Positions 2,572 through 9,553 of a stretch of 64,000 nt of DNA are shown here, piece by piece (position 1 is the stretch's first letter; each line of letters starts with the position of its first letter). A program made the position numbers and the translations under genes. Source of the DNA: Desulfocurvibacter africanus subsp. africanus DSM 2603 (GTDB taxonomy: Bacteria > Desulfobacterota > Desulfovibrionia > Desulfovibrionales > Desulfovibrionaceae); the NCBI RefSeq assembly GCF_000422545.1, contig NZ_AULZ01000008.1, forward strand, positions 124,001-188,000, in the 5' to 3' direction. The notes beneath the pieces are model-generated. The model saw only the letters and a list, made by a program, of their open reading frames with translations, was not told where the DNA came from and did no database searches.

Positions 2572-3369
2572 TCATATTAAGCGTCTGCGAAAGATCTCGA
2601 TCGACTGTGCGCGGCCCGTGCCCTCGTCGATGCGCAGCAGCGCGCCCTCTAGCAACACAGCGCCCCCGGCCACCCGGAAGCGCGTGGGCATGCCGGTCAG
2701 GAATCGTGACAGAATGGGAGCCGCCTCCATGCCCAGGATGGATTCCTCCGGGCCGCACATGCCCAGGTCCGTCAGGGCTGCTGTATGGCCTTGGCCGTGG
2801 GCGTCGCGCAGGATGCGCGCGTCGCTTGTCTGCACGTGCGTATGCGTGCCCAGCACGGCCGAGACCCGACCTGCCAGATGGTAGGCCATGGCTATCTTCT
2901 CGCTGGTGGCCTCGGCATGGAAGTCCACCAGGATGACGCGCACGTCCTCGGGAACCTGGGACAGCAGAGCGTCCGCCGTGCGGAACGGACACTCCAGGGC
3001 CTCCATGTACGTACGGCCCTGGAGGTTGAGCACGGCATAGGAAACGCCACCGCCCGCCGAGTACACACCCAGGCCGGACCCGGGCGCGCCCTGCGGGTAA
3101 TTGGCCGGCCGCAGCAGCCGCGTGGTCCTGGGCATGTAATCCTGGATCTCGCGGTACTTCCAAATGTGGTTGCCCGAGGTCAGCACATCCAGGCCCGAAT
3201 CCAGAAGCCTTCTGGCTTCGTCAGGCTTGAGGCCCAGCCCGCCCGAGGCGTTCTCGGCATTTGCCAACGCAACGTCCAGGGCCAGTTCCTCGCGGAGCCG
3301 GCGCATCTCGCCGGCAACAGCCTCACGGCCCGGACGGCCAACAATATCACCTAGAAAAAGAACACGCAT
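2572..3369 (-). CDS. ymdB: YmdB-family metallophosphoesterase
   Basis: The protein has 265 residues, the standard length for the TIGR00282/YmdB family, whose studied members hydrolyse cyclic nucleotides such as 2',3'-cAMP in the cytoplasm and influence RNA turnover and multicellular behaviour. Metal ligands are visible: Asp8 in LGDIVG, Glu39-Asn40, Asn67-His68 in SGNH, His151 in DFHAEATSEK, and His176/His178 in GTHTHVQT. The start is well supported by GGAGG nine bases upstream. In Bacillus ymdB sits beside rny; here rny lies about 4.6 kb away with a SulP gene and a GH68-like gene between. SulP is 52 bases upstream on the same strand. Confidence 0.93.
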   Translation of the reverse strand: MRVLFLGDIVGRPGREAVAGEMRRLREELALDVALANAENASGGLGLKPDEARRLLDSGLDVLTSGNHIWKYREIQDYMPRTTRLLRPANYPQGAPGSGLGVYSAGGGVSYAVLNLQGRTYMEALECPFRTADALLSQVPEDVRVILVDFHAEATSEKIAMAYHLAGRVSAVLGTHTHVQTSDARILRDAHGQGHTAALTDLGMCGPEESILGMEAAPILSRFLTGMPTRFRVAGGAVLLEGALLRIDEGTGRAQSIEIFRRRLI

Positions 3370-3421
3370 CCAACAGCCTCCAGAGATGGCACAGCCTAGC
3401 CGGATTCACCGGCCAGGGCAA

Positions 3422-5212
3422 TCACGCCGCCTCTGGCCCCGGGCCTGTGATGGATGTCATCATCCCTCTGGGCCGTGGCTCGCTGGCAATGATCTCGCGA
3501 GCCCTGTCCAAGGCCTGGAGGATATTCACGGTGATATTCTCCTGTCCGAAGAGCTTGTCTGCACCAAGCCGCTTGAGCGTAGCCATGGGCTGGGTTCTGA
3601 CGCCCGAAAGCACGATGGTCACATGACGCTTCTTGCATTTGTCGTGCAGGGCCTCAATGGAATTTACCGCTGTGGCGTCGATGGCCGGCACATGGCGCAT
3701 GCGCAGGATGAGCACCTTGGGCGGCTTGTGCATGGCCCTTACGATGGCATTCAACCTGTCCGCGCAGCCGAAGAAAAACGGCCCATCGATCTCGTAGACT
3801 TCAACGCCGTCAGGCACATCCAGCTCGTTGGTATCCGGGTGGAGTTCCTTGGGGAGGAGCTCCGCTTCCCCTTCGCTCCCAAATTCGAGCGTGCGGCGGA
3901 TGCCCGTAAGCTCGCTCATGCGGCGCATGAACAGGAGCGAAGCGAGCACAACGCCCACCCACACGGCCACGGTCAGGTCCACGACCACCGTAAGCCCGAA
4001 GGTCAACAGCATGACCACCACGTCGCTCTTGGGCGCCTTGAACAGCCGCTTGAACCTGTGCGGCTCGCTCATGTCATAGGCCACGACCACAAGCACGCCG
4101 GCAAGGCTGGCCAAGGGAATATACGAGGCGAGCGGCGCGAGCAGATAGACGAAGGCTACCAGGAACAAAGCGTGGATCATGCCCGACACGGGCGAGAAGG
4201 CCCCAGCCTTGATGTTGGTGGCCGTGCGAGCGATGGCGCCGGTGGCCGGGATGCCGCCCATGGCCACGGAGGCGATGTTGGCCAAGCCCTGGGCCACGAG
4301 CTCCGTGTTGGAATTGTGGTGATCGCCGGTCATGCCGTCGGCCACGATGGCGGACAGGAGCGATTCGATGCCGGCCAGCAAGGCAATGGTCACGGCGGCG
4401 GGAAACACTTCGCGCACCAAGTCCAGAGTGATGTGCGGCATGGCGAAACCCGGCAGGGCACGCGGAATGCCTCCGAAGCGCGAGCCGATGGTGTCCACGG
4501 GCAGAGCGTAGACCGCGGTCAGGACCGAGGCGAGCACCACGGCCACGAAGGGAGCCGGAATGCGCGGTATCCAGCGCCGCACGCAGAAGATGGTCACGAG
4601 CGTCACGCCGCTTATGATCAGCGTGGACTGATCCATCGTGCCGATATTGGCATAGTAGGCTTCCCAGCTGGCGAAGAACTCCGGCGAGGCCTTATCCATC
4701 TGCAGACCCAGGAAATCCTTCATCTGCTGGGTGAATATGAGCAAGCCGATGCCGGCGGTAAAACCCGTAGTCACGGGATAGGGAATAAATTTTATGAGCG
4801 CGCCCATGCGGCACAGACCGAATAGCATGAGCATTGCGCCGGCCAGGAGCGTGGCCACGAGCAGGCCATCCATGCCGTACTTGGCGATGGTGCCGTAAAT
4901 GATGACTACGAAAGCGCCAGTCGGTCCGCCGATCTGGAAGCGGCTGCCGCCCAGGAAGGAAATGATGAAACCCGCCACGATGGCCGTGACCAGGCCTTGC
5001 GCTGGCGAGGCGCCGGAAGCGATGGCAAAAGCCATGGCCAGAGGCAGGGCCACGATGCCCACGGTAATGCCCGAAAGGAGATCCCGGGACAGCGGCCCTG
5101 GGCCGTAACCCTGGGACAGCACGCTGAAGGCCTTGGGAGCCTCGGGCATGAACCGGCTGAGCCGGCCGCGCCAGCCATCTTTCCTGAATGCTTCGGAAGA
5201 CTCGACTTGCAT
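3422..5212 (-). CDS. SulP-family anion permease with STAS domain
   Basis: This is a 596-residue inner-membrane transporter. The amino half has about a dozen hydrophobic segments and the SulP signature region around residues 55-115, including SGITVGIVALPLAMAFA and FQIGGPTGAFVV. A cytoplasmic STAS domain occupies about residues 473-575, with the FFFGCADRL and ILRMRHVPAIDATAVN segments typical of the fold. SulP proteins move sulfate, bicarbonate or other anions; the substrate cannot be read from the sequence, though sulfate or bicarbonate would suit a sulfate reducer. A GGAG sits nine bases before the ATG. ymdB follows on the same strand with a 52-base gap, so co-transcription is likely. Confidence 0.94.
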   Translation of the reverse strand: MQVESSEAFRKDGWRGRLSRFMPEAPKAFSVLSQGYGPGPLSRDLLSGITVGIVALPLAMAFAIASGASPAQGLVTAIVAGFIISFLGGSRFQIGGPTGAFVVIIYGTIAKYGMDGLLVATLLAGAMLMLFGLCRMGALIKFIPYPVTTGFTAGIGLLIFTQQMKDFLGLQMDKASPEFFASWEAYYANIGTMDQSTLIISGVTLVTIFCVRRWIPRIPAPFVAVVLASVLTAVYALPVDTIGSRFGGIPRALPGFAMPHITLDLVREVFPAAVTIALLAGIESLLSAIVADGMTGDHHNSNTELVAQGLANIASVAMGGIPATGAIARTATNIKAGAFSPVSGMIHALFLVAFVYLLAPLASYIPLASLAGVLVVVAYDMSEPHRFKRLFKAPKSDVVVMLLTFGLTVVVDLTVAVWVGVVLASLLFMRRMSELTGIRRTLEFGSEGEAELLPKELHPDTNELDVPDGVEVYEIDGPFFFGCADRLNAIVRAMHKPPKVLILRMRHVPAIDATAVNSIEALHDKCKKRHVTIVLSGVRTQPMATLKRLGADKLFGQENITVNILQALDRAREIIASEPRPRGMMTSITGPGPEAA

Positions 5213-5852
5213 AAGACAAACTCCATCAAAATAGTTCCTGGACCACGCAAACAGCGTAAGGCCGCCAATGGACAGTCAGGGCATGAGCCCGTATGCCGCT
5301 CGGCTCATCGACGCCAAGTTCTCCGCCATGCGGAAGCGTGCAGCTATCCACCTTTTCGCGCCTGCTTAGGCCTGCCGGAGCAAACCTGACATGCGGCCTG
5401 CGACAGGAGGCCAACTCGATCCCATTAGGATTTCAAGGTGTACGCTTGCGATTTCCCGATTCCCGCCCCAAGGCTCGCCTCTTACGCCTCTTGGCAAGCG
5501 CATTCAATTAACTGCCCAACAAGCCATTATGTTTCAAATTCACCCAACAAACTGTATCAATGGGAGACAACCTAAAACATATCCATTTTGACTCTCAGCG
5601 TCTATCTGCCACGCTACGGCCTAGGGCCATTCCCCTCACGCCAATCCTATAGCCATCTTGAAGCACTTTCCCGCTTCCATCGAATCAAGCGAGCGGCGCC
5701 ACACTTACTCGGCGGGTATGCCTGCCCAAATGGACGCTGTTATTCATTTCATTTTAGGAAATAACTGCAAATATCAAATGTCCGCACATTATCTTTACAG
5801 GGCTGGTGGCTAATGTTTCATTAACCTTAATCAACAGCAAAGGTGCAGGAAC
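5213..5852. other. 640-bp intergenic region, AT-rich on its right half
   Basis: This gap lies between the divergent sulP and GH68-like genes. I see no supported gene, RNA or repeat. Base composition falls sharply from about 5500 onward compared with the surrounding GC-rich genes, and the low-GC character continues into the first 150 bases of the GH68-like gene. Promoters for both flanking genes should lie here, but none stands out clearly. Confidence 0.6.
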
Positions 5853-7709
5853 ATGTCTATTACACACAGGGAGAAAACCGCTACAATCATTGTCAAGCTG
5901 GCTAATGGAGTGAGGAAACGCCTTACCAATTATGGAATTGCATTTCTATTCATTGCTTTTATTGCACTTCCTGCTCCTCCAATGCTTACCACTACTGCCC
6001 AAGCAACTGATCTGCCTGGCTGGCTTGTAAATGATGTTCCGACAGTGCAGTCGGATTCTGTCGGACAAAATGACCAGTCAGTGGCCGTGGCGAGGCAGGA
6101 CGACACTGCCGAGGTCTCCTCATGGCTTCTTGAGGATGCCATGGGCATACAGCCCGTTCCGGAAGAGAACACGGTTCCACCCATCATGCGGGACGATCTC
6201 TTCCCCGACCAATACTCCCCCGACCAGTGGACTTTCGAGACTTGGCCTCTGATGCGGCCCGACGGCGAGTTGGCCAGGGTGGATGGATACTTCATCTTCT
6301 TCTCGCTGGCCGTACCTGACGGTTCGGTGCAGGATCCCGAGGATCGCTACGAGCAGGCGCGCATCCGCTACTACTATAGCCAGGACGGAATGACCTGGAC
6401 CGACGGCGGCGAGCTGTTCCCGGAAGGCGACGCCTTGGGCGACGCACAATGGGCCGGTTCCGCGGTGATTGACGACTGCCGCCTGAGCATCTTCTACACC
6501 GCTGTGGGCGAGATCGAACCGGACACGCCTGATGGCGACGGCGACGGCGACGGCGACGGAACGGATACTCCGGAATGCCCGGACGGCTCCGTGCGTCAGA
6601 ATGGGCAGGAATGCCCTGGCGATCAGAACGGTCAGGATGGCGATGGTGATGGAAACGGAGACGGTGATGTCGGCGAACCGATCACCATACGTTCCCAGAG
6701 CATCGCCCTTGCCGAGGCGAACCTGACGGTCGGTCCTGATGGCCCCATCTTCAGCAACTGGTCCGAACACGAAATCATACTTGAACCTGAAGGCATGATG
6801 TACCAGACCGCCCAGCAGGCCGAGCAGCAGATCAACAACCAGAACGGCGGAACGGATAACGGTGACAGCGGCAATGGCAGCAACGGCGACGGCACTGACG
6901 ACGGCACCGGCGATGATGTGGGCGACGACGATTCCCAGCAGGGCATCGCACCCGAGCGGACCTACGCCTTCCGCGACCCGTTCTTCTTCACCGATCCCCA
7001 AACCGGTGACGACTACATCATCTTCTCCGGCGACCTGAGCCCCGACTTCACCCAGACCGATGACTGCGAGAACCGCGACCGCTTCAACGCCGCCGTGGGT
7101 ATTGCCCGCAGGGACGATGACAGCAACGGTGATGATAACAACGGTGACGATGATACCAACGATAACGGCGACAACTCCACGCAGAACTGGACACTTCTTC
7201 CCCCGCTCTTCCACGCCTCCTGCATCACCAAGATGCTCGACCAACCCCACCTCATATTCCGGGACAATATCTATCACCTCTTCGCAAACGCATACTCCGA
7301 TTCATTCGCTCCCGACATCCAAGGCTGGACCGCTCTGTACGGATTCACGTCCGAGGAGCTTATCGGCCAGTACACGCCGATCAATGGAAGCGGACTGGTC
7401 CTGGGAAATCCGGAAACGGCGCCTCTGCAGTGCTATGGCCGCCTGACCACGTCTGACCTCTCCGTGCTTTCCTTTGCCCTCTACCCCGAGGTCGAGGCCG
7501 AACGAGTGGACGAGCTTACGGAGCAGGAGCGCTTCGATGCCTTCGGCGGCACGCTGTGCCCAACGGCGCAGCTCATGACGCCTGACAATGTCACTGATAA
7601 CACGACGCAACTCGTTGTCGGCGAAGTCTGCCAGCCGGGCACTTTCCCCTGCCCACCCGATCAGTCCGACGATGATGCGGATGATGGAACTACATCCGGC
7701 AACAATTAA
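5853..7709 (+). CDS. secreted GH68-like protein (levansucrase/fructosyltransferase family) with altered catalytic residues
   Basis: The 618-residue protein begins with a signal peptide (hydrophobic core about 28-41, likely cleavage after AQA at 51). The rest follows the five-blade GH68 fold in order: WTFETWPL at 126-133, QWAGSA at 199-204, LSIFYTA, SQSIALAEANL, FRDP with Asp375, and LDQPHLIF at 462-469, then LYGFTSEELIGQYTPINGSGLVL. GH68 enzymes transfer fructose from sucrose. Against SacB, the nucleophile (Asp86) aligns with Glu129 and the acid/base (Glu342) with Asp463, while the transition-state Asp247 is kept as Asp375. Three Asp/Gly/Asn-rich insertions sit at about 222-275, 328-363 and 421-444, plus an acidic tail. 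The 5' end is AT-rich. Family confident; activity doubtful. Confidence 0.85.
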   Translation: MSITHREKTATIIVKLANGVRKRLTNYGIAFLFIAFIALPAPPMLTTTAQATDLPGWLVNDVPTVQSDSVGQNDQSVAVARQDDTAEVSSWLLEDAMGIQPVPEENTVPPIMRDDLFPDQYSPDQWTFETWPLMRPDGELARVDGYFIFFSLAVPDGSVQDPEDRYEQARIRYYYSQDGMTWTDGGELFPEGDALGDAQWAGSAVIDDCRLSIFYTAVGEIEPDTPDGDGDGDGDGTDTPECPDGSVRQNGQECPGDQNGQDGDGDGNGDGDVGEPITIRSQSIALAEANLTVGPDGPIFSNWSEHEIILEPEGMMYQTAQQAEQQINNQNGGTDNGDSGNGSNGDGTDDGTGDDVGDDDSQQGIAPERTYAFRDPFFFTDPQTGDDYIIFSGDLSPDFTQTDDCENRDRFNAAVGIARRDDDSNGDDNNGDDDTNDNGDNSTQNWTLLPPLFHASCITKMLDQPHLIFRDNIYHLFANAYSDSFAPDIQGWTALYGFTSEELIGQYTPINGSGLVLGNPETAPLQCYGRLTTSDLSVLSFALYPEVEAERVDELTEQERFDAFGGTLCPTAQLMTPDNVTDNTTQLVVGEVCQPGTFPCPPDQSDDDADDGTTSGNN

Positions 7710-7909
7710 CCCTGACGGCGATCATGGAAGCTCTGACTGTCGTGCAAACGATATCCCGCAAAACCAACGCAAAACGCGTTTGTGAGATGCGTTTGCATTC
7801 ACGCCGGCGCGACTCCGGCGAATTTGCCTTGCCAGGATAGGCACGGTTGACGTCATTCTAGACAGATACCAGCAGCCGCACACCAGCCCTGTCGGCGCTA
7901 TGAAATGAA

Positions 7910-7938
7910 AGAGGCCCCCGGTTCAACCGGGGGCCTCT
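7910..7938. terminator. bidirectional terminator between GH68-like gene and rny
   Basis: A perfect 12-bp stem AGAGGCCCCCGG with a five-base loop lies between the converging GH68-like gene and rny. On the minus strand it is followed by TTTCATTTCA, so it is best read as the rny terminator. Confidence 0.85.
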
Positions 7939-7972
7939 GTACATACGATCTGGCAAACTAGTGTTTGCAGTG

Positions 7973-9553
7973 CTACTTGGCGTACTCCACGGCTCGTTTC
8001 TCGCGGATGACCGTGACCTTGATCTGGCCTGGATAGGTCAGATTCTCCTCGATCTTATGAGCTATGTCCTTACAGAGCAGGTACGTGTTGTCGTCGGTCA
8101 CCTTGTCCGCATCGACCATGACCCGGATCTCGCGGCCAGCCTGGATGGCGAACGCCTTGGACACGCCTTCCACGTCCTTGGCCACGTTCTCCAGGTCCTC
8201 AAGCCGCTTGACGTAATTCTCCAGCAGTTCCTTGCGCGCACCGGGACGGGCTCCGGACAGGGAGTCCGCCGCCTGCACGAGCACGGCCAGAATGGACTTG
8301 GGCGGAACGTCCTCGTGGTGCGCGGCGATGGCGTGAATGATCTCCTTGGACTCGGCGTACTTCTTGGCCAGGTCAGCACCGATGATGGCATGCGGGCCCT
8401 CGACTTCGTGGTCCACGGCCTTGCCGATATCGTGCAGCAAGCCAGCGCGCTTGGCCTTCTTCTCGTCCAGGCCCAACTCGGCGGCCATGATGCCGCACAG
8501 CGAGGCCACTTCAAGCGAATGCTGCAGCACGTTCTGCGAGAAGCTGGTGCGGTAGTGCAACTGGCCCAGCAGGCGAATGATGTCGGGATGGATGCCGTGC
8601 ACGGCTACATCGAAGGTGGCCTGCTCGCCGATTTCGCGCAGCTTGACTTCCATCTCCTGCTCGACCTTCTTGACGATATCCTCGATGCGCGCCGGATGGA
8701 TGCGGCCGTCGGTGATGAGCCGCTCCAGAGCCTGCTTGGCGATTTCGCGCCGTAGCGGGCTGTAGGCCGACAGAATGACGGTCTCGGGCGTGTCGTCGAT
8801 GATGAGGTCCACGCCGGTGGCGGCCTCCAGAGCGCGGATGTTGCGCCCCTCGCGGCCGATGATGCGCCCCTTCATGTCCTCCGAAGGCAGGCTCACGGCC
8901 GTGACCGTCTGCTCGGCCACGTAGTCGCCGGCGTAACGCTGTATGGAAAGCGCCAGGATTTCCTTGGCCTTCTTGTCGGCCATCTCGCGAGCTTCCATCT
9001 CGATGGTGCGGACCATCTTGGCCGCCTCGTGACGAGTCTTGTCCTCGATATCCTGCATGATGCGCGAGCGGGCCTCTTCCTGGGTCAGGCCGGAAATCTC
9101 CTCGAGCTTGCGAGCCTGTTCCTCCTCCCGCTGCACGATGACTTCGTCCCGATCCGCCAGCAGGCGCTCCTGCTTGGTGAGCTTCTTCTCGAAATCAATA
9201 ACGCTGATTTCCTTCTGGGCCAGCTTTTCGAGCTTGCTCTCCAGCCGCTCTTCCTTCTCGGCGAGCTTGACCTCTTTATCGGCGAGCTTGCCTTCCTTGC
9301 TCTTGAGCTGCCGTTCGCGCTCCTTGTACTCGCCCTCCAGCTCCTTCTTCTGATTATAGATCTCATCCTGGGCTTGGAGCAGGCTTTCCTTCTTGGAGGC
9401 CTGGGCCTCCTTGCGAGCTTCGTCGAGGATTCGCTCAGCCAAATCCTTGGCATCACGCAACCGCCTGGACTCTATAGCCTTGTGCAGGACATAACCAGCC
9501 GCAGCGCCGATGGCTGCTCCGACCAGGATCAGTAGAATAGATATAAAACTCAT
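7973..9553 (-). CDS. rny: ribonuclease Y
   Basis: RNase Y is a membrane-anchored endoribonuclease that starts mRNA decay. The 526-residue protein has one N-terminal membrane helix ([21 protein letters not shown]), a long charged coiled coil to about residue 200, a KH domain with [13 protein letters not shown] near 235, and an HD domain with HSLEVA and LLHDIGKA between about 340 and 430. An in-frame GTG lies six bases further upstream, but it overlaps the AGGAGG ribosome-binding site, so the ATG at 9551-9553 is the start. 6S RNA and zapA lie upstream on the same strand. The partner ymdB is not adjacent here. Confidence 0.97.

Follow-up and report, generated by a model that had tools for sequence, protein, structure and literature searches.

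Among the enzymes of family GH68, the SacB mutants D86A and E342A have been called inactive (PMC2277421), while in Lsc3 of Pseudomonas syringae the mutants W61A/N, D62A, E303A/Q and R304A/C are reported as inactive or strongly hampered (PMC6271050). By motif, we took W61, D62, E303 and R304 of Lsc3 to be the four residues of the Trp-Asp nucleophile dyad and the Glu-Arg acid/base dyad. The Arg of the RDP motif (SacB R246) has been proposed to raise the pKa of the acid/base residue (PMC3360783). A double mutant of SacB, D86A/E342A, still binds a levan oligosaccharide in the crystal, and it follows that a dead GH68 protein can hold sugar; the same report names 16 sugar-contact residues of SacB (PMC7948499). 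The haloarchaeal inulosucrase HmcIsc is described as rich in acidic residues, an enrichment regarded as typical of extracellular halozymes, and as lacking the calcium site of SacB, and its H88 contacts sucrose in a docking model (PMC8066391). Plant defective invertases are natural non-catalytic proteins of clan GH-J with a biological role; their changes are said to spare the catalytic triad in every case and to lie in a neighbouring couple and in Trp residues (PMC3713406). The open-licence literature searched yielded no GH68 protein in nature whose catalytic acids are exchanged, no paper on a GH68 pseudoenzyme and no GH68 paper dealing with sulfate-reducing bacteria, and a search for levansucrase together with Desulfovibrio gave, among the matches listed, no title on GH68 of that group.

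The window, that is the whole stretch of 64,000 nucleotides analysed, carries a gene for a GH68-homologous protein that is altered at both of these dyads:

5853..7709, + strand: GH68-homologous protein; open reading frame with an ATG start, 618 aa; Pfam PF02435; PDB matches include 7bj4
6234..6239, + strand: F128-E129, in the place of the Trp-Asp nucleophile dyad (SacB W85-D86); W and D in 38/38 homologues
6450..6452, + strand: W200, equivalent of SacB W163, kept; W in 38/38 homologues
6972..6980, + strand: R374-D375-P376, transition-state stabiliser motif, kept; present in 38/38 homologues
7239..7244, + strand: D463-Q464, in the place of the Glu-Arg acid/base dyad (SacB E342-R343); E and R in 38/38 homologues

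Homology to GH68 is established by the Pfam profile Glyco_hydro_68, which matches the product of 5853-7709 with 168.3 bits against a curated cut-off of 27 (E=3.6e-49). It is the sole Pfam family above its cut-off, GH32N reaching 13.9 bits and thus staying below its own 22.1, and no NCBIfam family was assigned to this frame at E values up to 1. Among solved structures the best match is to the Halalkalicoccus jeotgali inulosucrase 7bj4 (E=9.2e-54). The frame of 618 codons is intact, so the gene is no pseudogene in the sense of a broken frame. Of its 13 fifty-codon blocks, 9 have a GC3 of 0.72-0.86; the value falls off at both ends and is 0.62 in one block. Regarding the fold, a full-length model (4 sequences) has a mean pLDDT of 50 and retrieves 7bj4 as best Foldseek match (E=7e-26), while a model of residues 90-582 has 189 of 493 residues at a pLDDT of 70 or more and aligns with 7bjc in VIA-align over 327 residues (Z 33.9, rmsd 3.2). 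A five-bladed propeller is seen in this second model, which is of modest quality (mean pLDDT 60) and was built with GH68 homologues, and as far as such a model shows, the propeller appears to be retained.

For comparison, the protein and 38 GH68 homologues were aligned with MAFFT, the latter comprising 11 tandem Neobacillus-like Bacillota paralogues, 8 SacB-type Bacillota sequences, 8 sphingomonads, 5 other proteobacteria, 5 haloarchaea and 1 actinomycete. From the 46 homologue rows of the MAFFT input 8 had been dropped before counting, namely seven open reading frames of SacB-type loci that had been taken by length and were unaligned at the motifs (probably GH32 levanases), and one Paraburkholderia fragment (L041) without the N-terminal half. 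Of the 62 plasmid records 20 were retrieved, and the interrupted third paralogue of genome G880 is not among the aligned rows. Since several of the 38 are closely related, a set of 29 sequences was derived with pairwise identities below 80% and identities to our protein below 60%; invariant columns were defined on this non-redundant set, and per-position counts and the comparison of sugar contacts were made on all 38.

The first-pass annotation, made from the sequence, had placed E129 at the position of the SacB nucleophile Asp86 and D463 at that of the acid/base Glu342, with the Asp of RDP conserved as D375, and these three placements hold. The residues lie in the motifs FETWPL (F128-E129), FRDP (R374-D375-P376) and MLDQPHL (M461-L462-D463-Q464-P465). 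In the four printed HMMER alignments (7bj4, 9ibs, 4d47, 7ehr) the nucleophile Asp stands opposite E129 and the acid/base Glu opposite D463, without gaps at either catalytic motif, and in the MAFFT alignment the two columns have Asp in 38/38 and Glu in 38/38 homologues. Of the comparison with the GH68 sequences of CAZy that had been suggested as a check, these 38 homologues were covered, and the double exchange withstood it; homologues with the same residues were not encountered among them, as none of the 38 has Glu at the position of E129 or Asp at that of D463. Given the ungapped pairings and the uniform Asp and Glu columns, the exchange of the catalytic residues is, in these alignments, neither chance nor misalignment, and with all 38 sampled homologues canonical the changed state of the dyads would most simply be derived. 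An alternative sequence alignment, in which a different acid would occupy the nucleophile or the acid/base position, was considered and rejected, the motifs being ungapped in the four printed HMMER alignments and in MAFFT.

Measured against the features of a GH68 enzyme, the protein has neither the Asp nucleophile of the W-D dyad nor the Glu acid/base of the E-R dyad, while RDP is present. All three triad positions are still occupied by carboxylates (E129, D375, D463). The alteration extends beyond the carboxylates to their dyad partners, W128F and R464Q, in columns that hold W and R in 38/38 homologues; neither of these, nor the changed equivalents of SacB E262, E340, R360 and S412 described below, had been mentioned in the first-pass annotation. 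W200, Y528 and RDP are retained, so that SacB W163, Y411 and R246 have their counterparts.

Eighteen columns are invariant in the 29 homologues, and the protein breaks four of them (W128F, D129E, E463D, R464Q), which together make up the W-D and E-R dyads, whereas the remaining 14, RDP included, are kept. If four breaks were placed at random in 18 columns, exactly this set would be expected in 1 of 3060 cases, a figure to be taken as a guide only, because the members of each pair are adjacent. In a leave-one-out control, 30 other homologues showed 0-2 breaks of 18-20 columns, and eight distant SacB-type rows broke 10-11 of 30, but never the dyads. Within the 38 homologues, therefore, breaking invariant columns is not unique to our protein, while breaking the dyads is. 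At columns conserved to at least 75% it departs at 18 of 77, which is within the range of the homologues (3-47%). Since overall deviation is ordinary in this respect, the departure is, as far as aligned sequences tell, concentrated in the active site.

These counts bear on the possibility of a decaying gene, i.e., a horizontally acquired levansucrase that is unselected in a host without sucrose use and is drifting while its frame is still open. The gene is the only GH68 in its genome, which has no second GH68 and no GH32, its terminal branch of 1.28 is the longest in the tree, and slippage-prone repeats lie inside it, all of which would suit such a history. However, 14/14 non-dyad invariant columns are intact despite about 63% of aligned residues differing from the nearest relative, and drift should not single out two dyads. 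As these other invariant columns and the reading frame have been retained, simple decay is argued against and we consider it unlikely; the best reading of the sequence is that the protein may still be under constraint.

Changes are also found elsewhere in the pocket, at the following positions:

6348..6350, + strand: Y166, at the His taken for HmcIsc H88 (equivalence inferred by motif); H in 30/38 homologues, gap in 8
7026..7028, + strand: S392, equivalent of SacB E262; E in 29, T in 5, A in 3 and V in 1 of 38, Ser unseen
7233..7235, + strand: M461, equivalent of SacB E340; E in 25 and Q in 13 of 38
7293..7295, + strand: Y481, equivalent of SacB R360; H in 23, R in 8 and Q in 7 of 38
7437..7439, + strand: G529, equivalent of SacB S412; S in 29, A in 6 and C in 3 of 38

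Our protein has a residue unseen in the 38 homologues at 8 of the 16 sugar contacts of SacB (W85F, D86E, E262S, E340M, E342D, R343Q, R360Y and S412G in SacB numbering) versus 60 of the 351 other aligned columns, with a Fisher p of 0.0035 in a test that assumes independent columns, although the dyad positions are adjacent. Any single homologue shows at most 2 of 16 such unusual contacts.

The proposal that a one-methylene shift of each carboxylate has re-balanced the site accounts for 2 of these 8 positions. It would imply a re-tuned catalyst with Glu129 as nucleophile and Asp463 as acid/base, in which side-chain lengths compensate each other and W128F makes room, and which would still act on fructosyl units by transfer or hydrolysis, perhaps at a low rate or a different pH. 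A Zymomonas mutant with the acid/base Glu changed to Asp reportedly has much reduced turnover; the open-licence literature searched gave no paper on it. The presence of a carboxylate at both positions, with lengths exchanged reciprocally, fits such a catalyst, as does the clustering of changes at the catalytic dyads with RDP, W200 and Y528 kept. However, the equivalents of SacB R343, E340, R360, S412 and E262 are changed too, neither residue is used by any of the 38 homologues, and the Lsc3 mutants of R304 and W61 are reported to be strongly hampered on their own (PMC6271050). We thus find this proposal very doubtful.

Alternatively, the pocket may have been rebuilt for a non-fructoside sugar, giving a glycosidase or transglycosidase in which E129, D375 and D463 work in a different geometry; inverting five-bladed propellers, e.g., those of GH43, provide a parallel for a different triad geometry. 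The donor-pocket residues are replaced, not deleted, and new polar or aromatic residues have appeared (Y166, Y481, R530), as might be expected of a new substrate. Against this stand the Pfam result, in which GH68 alone passes its cut-off, and the lack of any operon partner hinting at a substrate, the neighbours being a gene for a SulP permease and genes that we take to be rny, ymdB and tyrS. A new-substrate enzyme is in our opinion quite doubtful. More broadly, it appears rather improbable that a sulfate reducer exports a working enzyme of new specificity or geometry whose catalytic pair has truly been exchanged along with its partners and the pocket.

Additional features concern export and the loops of the protein:

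5853..6011, + strand: probable signal peptide, about aa 1-53, with an AQA/TD boundary; read from the translation, inferred
6516..6671, + strand: insert 1, about aa 222-273, Asp/Gly-rich, with two Cys; limits approximate
6534..6559, + strand: hexanucleotide repeat (GGCGAC)4.3, in frame, coding DGDG; from a repeat search
6828..6950, + strand: insert 2, about aa 326-366, Asp/Gly/Asn-rich, just before the RDP strand; limits approximate
7113..7184, + strand: insert 3, about aa 421-444, Asp/Asn-rich; TRF array at 7113-7161

The putative signal peptide consists, as read from the translation, of a basic n-region followed by a hydrophobic stretch, and the protein is probably exported. Without these 53 residues it contains 1 Lys, 20 Arg and 20% Asp+Glu, with a pI of 4.05. 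Nothing corresponding to the three inserts occurs in the 17 homologues of alignment A1. At E values up to 1, Pfam gave no calcium-repeat family for the protein, and the exact DGDGDGD-coding pattern had no match elsewhere in its own genome. Slippage at the repeats 6534-6559 and 7113-7161, the latter degenerate and longer, could make the Asp-rich loops longer or shorter. Nine Cys are present (residues 209, 242, 254, 405, 457, 527, 569, 593 and 600), with Cys absent from all 38 homologues at the positions of C527 and C569 (at C569, Ala in 37 and Ser in 1). Extra disulfides would be conceivable in an exported protein.

With regard to origin, the genome carries dsrA (612 bits against a cut-off of 393), indicating a sulfate reducer or a related organism, and its gene content looks like that of Desulfovibrionaceae. 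Within the class, GH68 was detected at E values up to 1e-10 in this genome only (1/348), and no matches beyond it were obtained among 39 relatives, 297 genomes of the order (protein queries) or 395 of the phylum, sets that overlap. A scan of genome contigs for closer relatives returned a single Neobacillus locus. In the class of that genome GH68 was found in 12 of 200 genomes; the search of its phylum, covering 398 genomes, gave 6, none of them additional to those 12. Two scans of viral contigs and a search of phages yielded no matches, and the 62 records of the plasmid search are all below 60% identity to our protein. The gene is thus a singleton, with no orthologue or close relative in the genomes, plasmids and viral contigs searched. 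The highest sequence scores belong to the Neobacillus-like paralogues (up to 252 bits), the nearest having 36-37% identity over aligned positions, and in the tree our protein stands beside these Neobacillus-type paralogues, a grouping without usable support, as the next node up has a value of 39 and the pairing bears none in the printed tree. Of the three GH68 matches in tandem in the Bacillota genome G880, the third (L035) is interrupted by an internal TAG and the first two have open frames. The Acinetobacter and Rahnella plasmid GH68 genes (L012, L016) adjoin genes annotated as lambda-family holins, which hints at phage-linked spread.

The gene is adjoined by that of the SulP permease (PF00916). 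In the loci of 5 of 18 relatives the presumed ymdB comes after rny at a distance of up to about 0.4 kb, whereas here the SulP and GH68 genes lie between them; the short loci of the other 13 gave no match to ymdB. At window positions 3369-7973 the two genes fill the ymdB-rny gap, which may be an insertion spot. The roughly 640 bases between them (5213-5852) contain no assignable open reading frame and are AT-rich immediately ahead of the GH68 start codon. The restriction of GH68 to this genome in the class and the sampled phylum, together with the occupied ymdB-rny gap, points to horizontal gain. An artefact of assembly or sequencing, or a contaminating contig, is scarcely credible: nothing was found in its favour, the neighbouring rny is 68-76% identical in 18/18 relatives, with matches to what we take to be glmU, ymdB or tyrS around it in most loci, genome contamination is given as 0.28, and the differences at the catalytic dyads are in-frame codon replacements.

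On the whole, we lean towards a horizontally acquired and probably exported protein of GH68 fold that is no longer a sucrose-splitting fructosyltransferase. Having neither the Asp nucleophile nor the Glu acid/base, nor the adjacent Trp and Arg, the protein would turn over sucrose very slowly or not at all, and we believe that ordinary sucrase activity has probably been lost, judging from sequence. The pocket or surface may then have been recruited to another job, most likely the binding of fructan or another glycan, or, alternatively, the protein may serve through its Asp-rich loops as an acidic matrix protein outside the cell or in the periplasm. A lectin-like role is possible by analogy to dead SacB; because the pocket itself is altered here, the ligand may not be fructan. 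The first-pass annotation had also considered a fold kept for carbohydrate binding, and this is the nearer of its two readings, given that four dyad residues have changed together and that the corresponding Lsc3 mutants are reported as hampered (PMC6271050). However, with half of the 16 published contacts altered it is unsafe to assume unchanged binding of sucrose or fructan, and the loss of contacts needed for sucrose counts against a sugar-binding role, so that a binding role specifically is put forward only tentatively.

Some observations also weigh against the loss of activity. The three triad carboxylates are kept, which a simply dead protein need not do, and so are the equivalents of SacB W163, R246 and Y411. 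Furthermore, the severe loss of activity invoked for changes at the SacB nucleophile or acid/base residue is borne out for the Ala mutants D86A and E342A (PMC2277421), but this does not extend to Asp/Glu exchanges: the published mutants compared are Ala, Asn, Cys or Gln changes, with no conservative change between Asp and Glu in the parts of the reports used, and some residual activity is therefore possible. Since the dyads W-D and E-R are invariant in 38 aligned GH68 homologues and all four residues are changed here, the protein lends itself as a natural test case for two questions, namely whether exchanged carboxylates can sustain a retaining fructosyltransferase and in what way an enzyme acting on sugars turns into a non-enzyme.

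Compared with known systems, the haloarchaeal inulosucrases (7bj4/7bjc of Halalkalicoccus jeotgali and HmcIsc of Halomicrobium) are the best solved match by sequence and fold. HmcIsc is, like our protein, reported to be rich in acidic residues (PMC8066391), and 7bj4 shares with it a Cys just before the acid/base motif. In contrast, these inulosucrases have canonical W-D and E-R dyads, and the five aligned haloarchaeal sequences are without the Asp-rich inserts. The tandem paralogues of Neobacillus-like Bacillota (L001, L028-L036) are closest by score, and all 11 aligned keep W-D and E-R. The SacB mutants D86A, E342A and D86A/E342A resemble our protein in having the GH68 fold altered at the same positions, but they are laboratory-made, contain Ala and not exchanged carboxylates, and leave the rest of the pocket unchanged. 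Finally, plant defective invertases such as tobacco Nin88 (GH32) are reported to keep the triad (PMC3713406), whereas here, in a bacterial GH68 protein, two of the three triad residues are themselves changed, which would set this member apart from the dead enzymes of clan GH-J described in that source.
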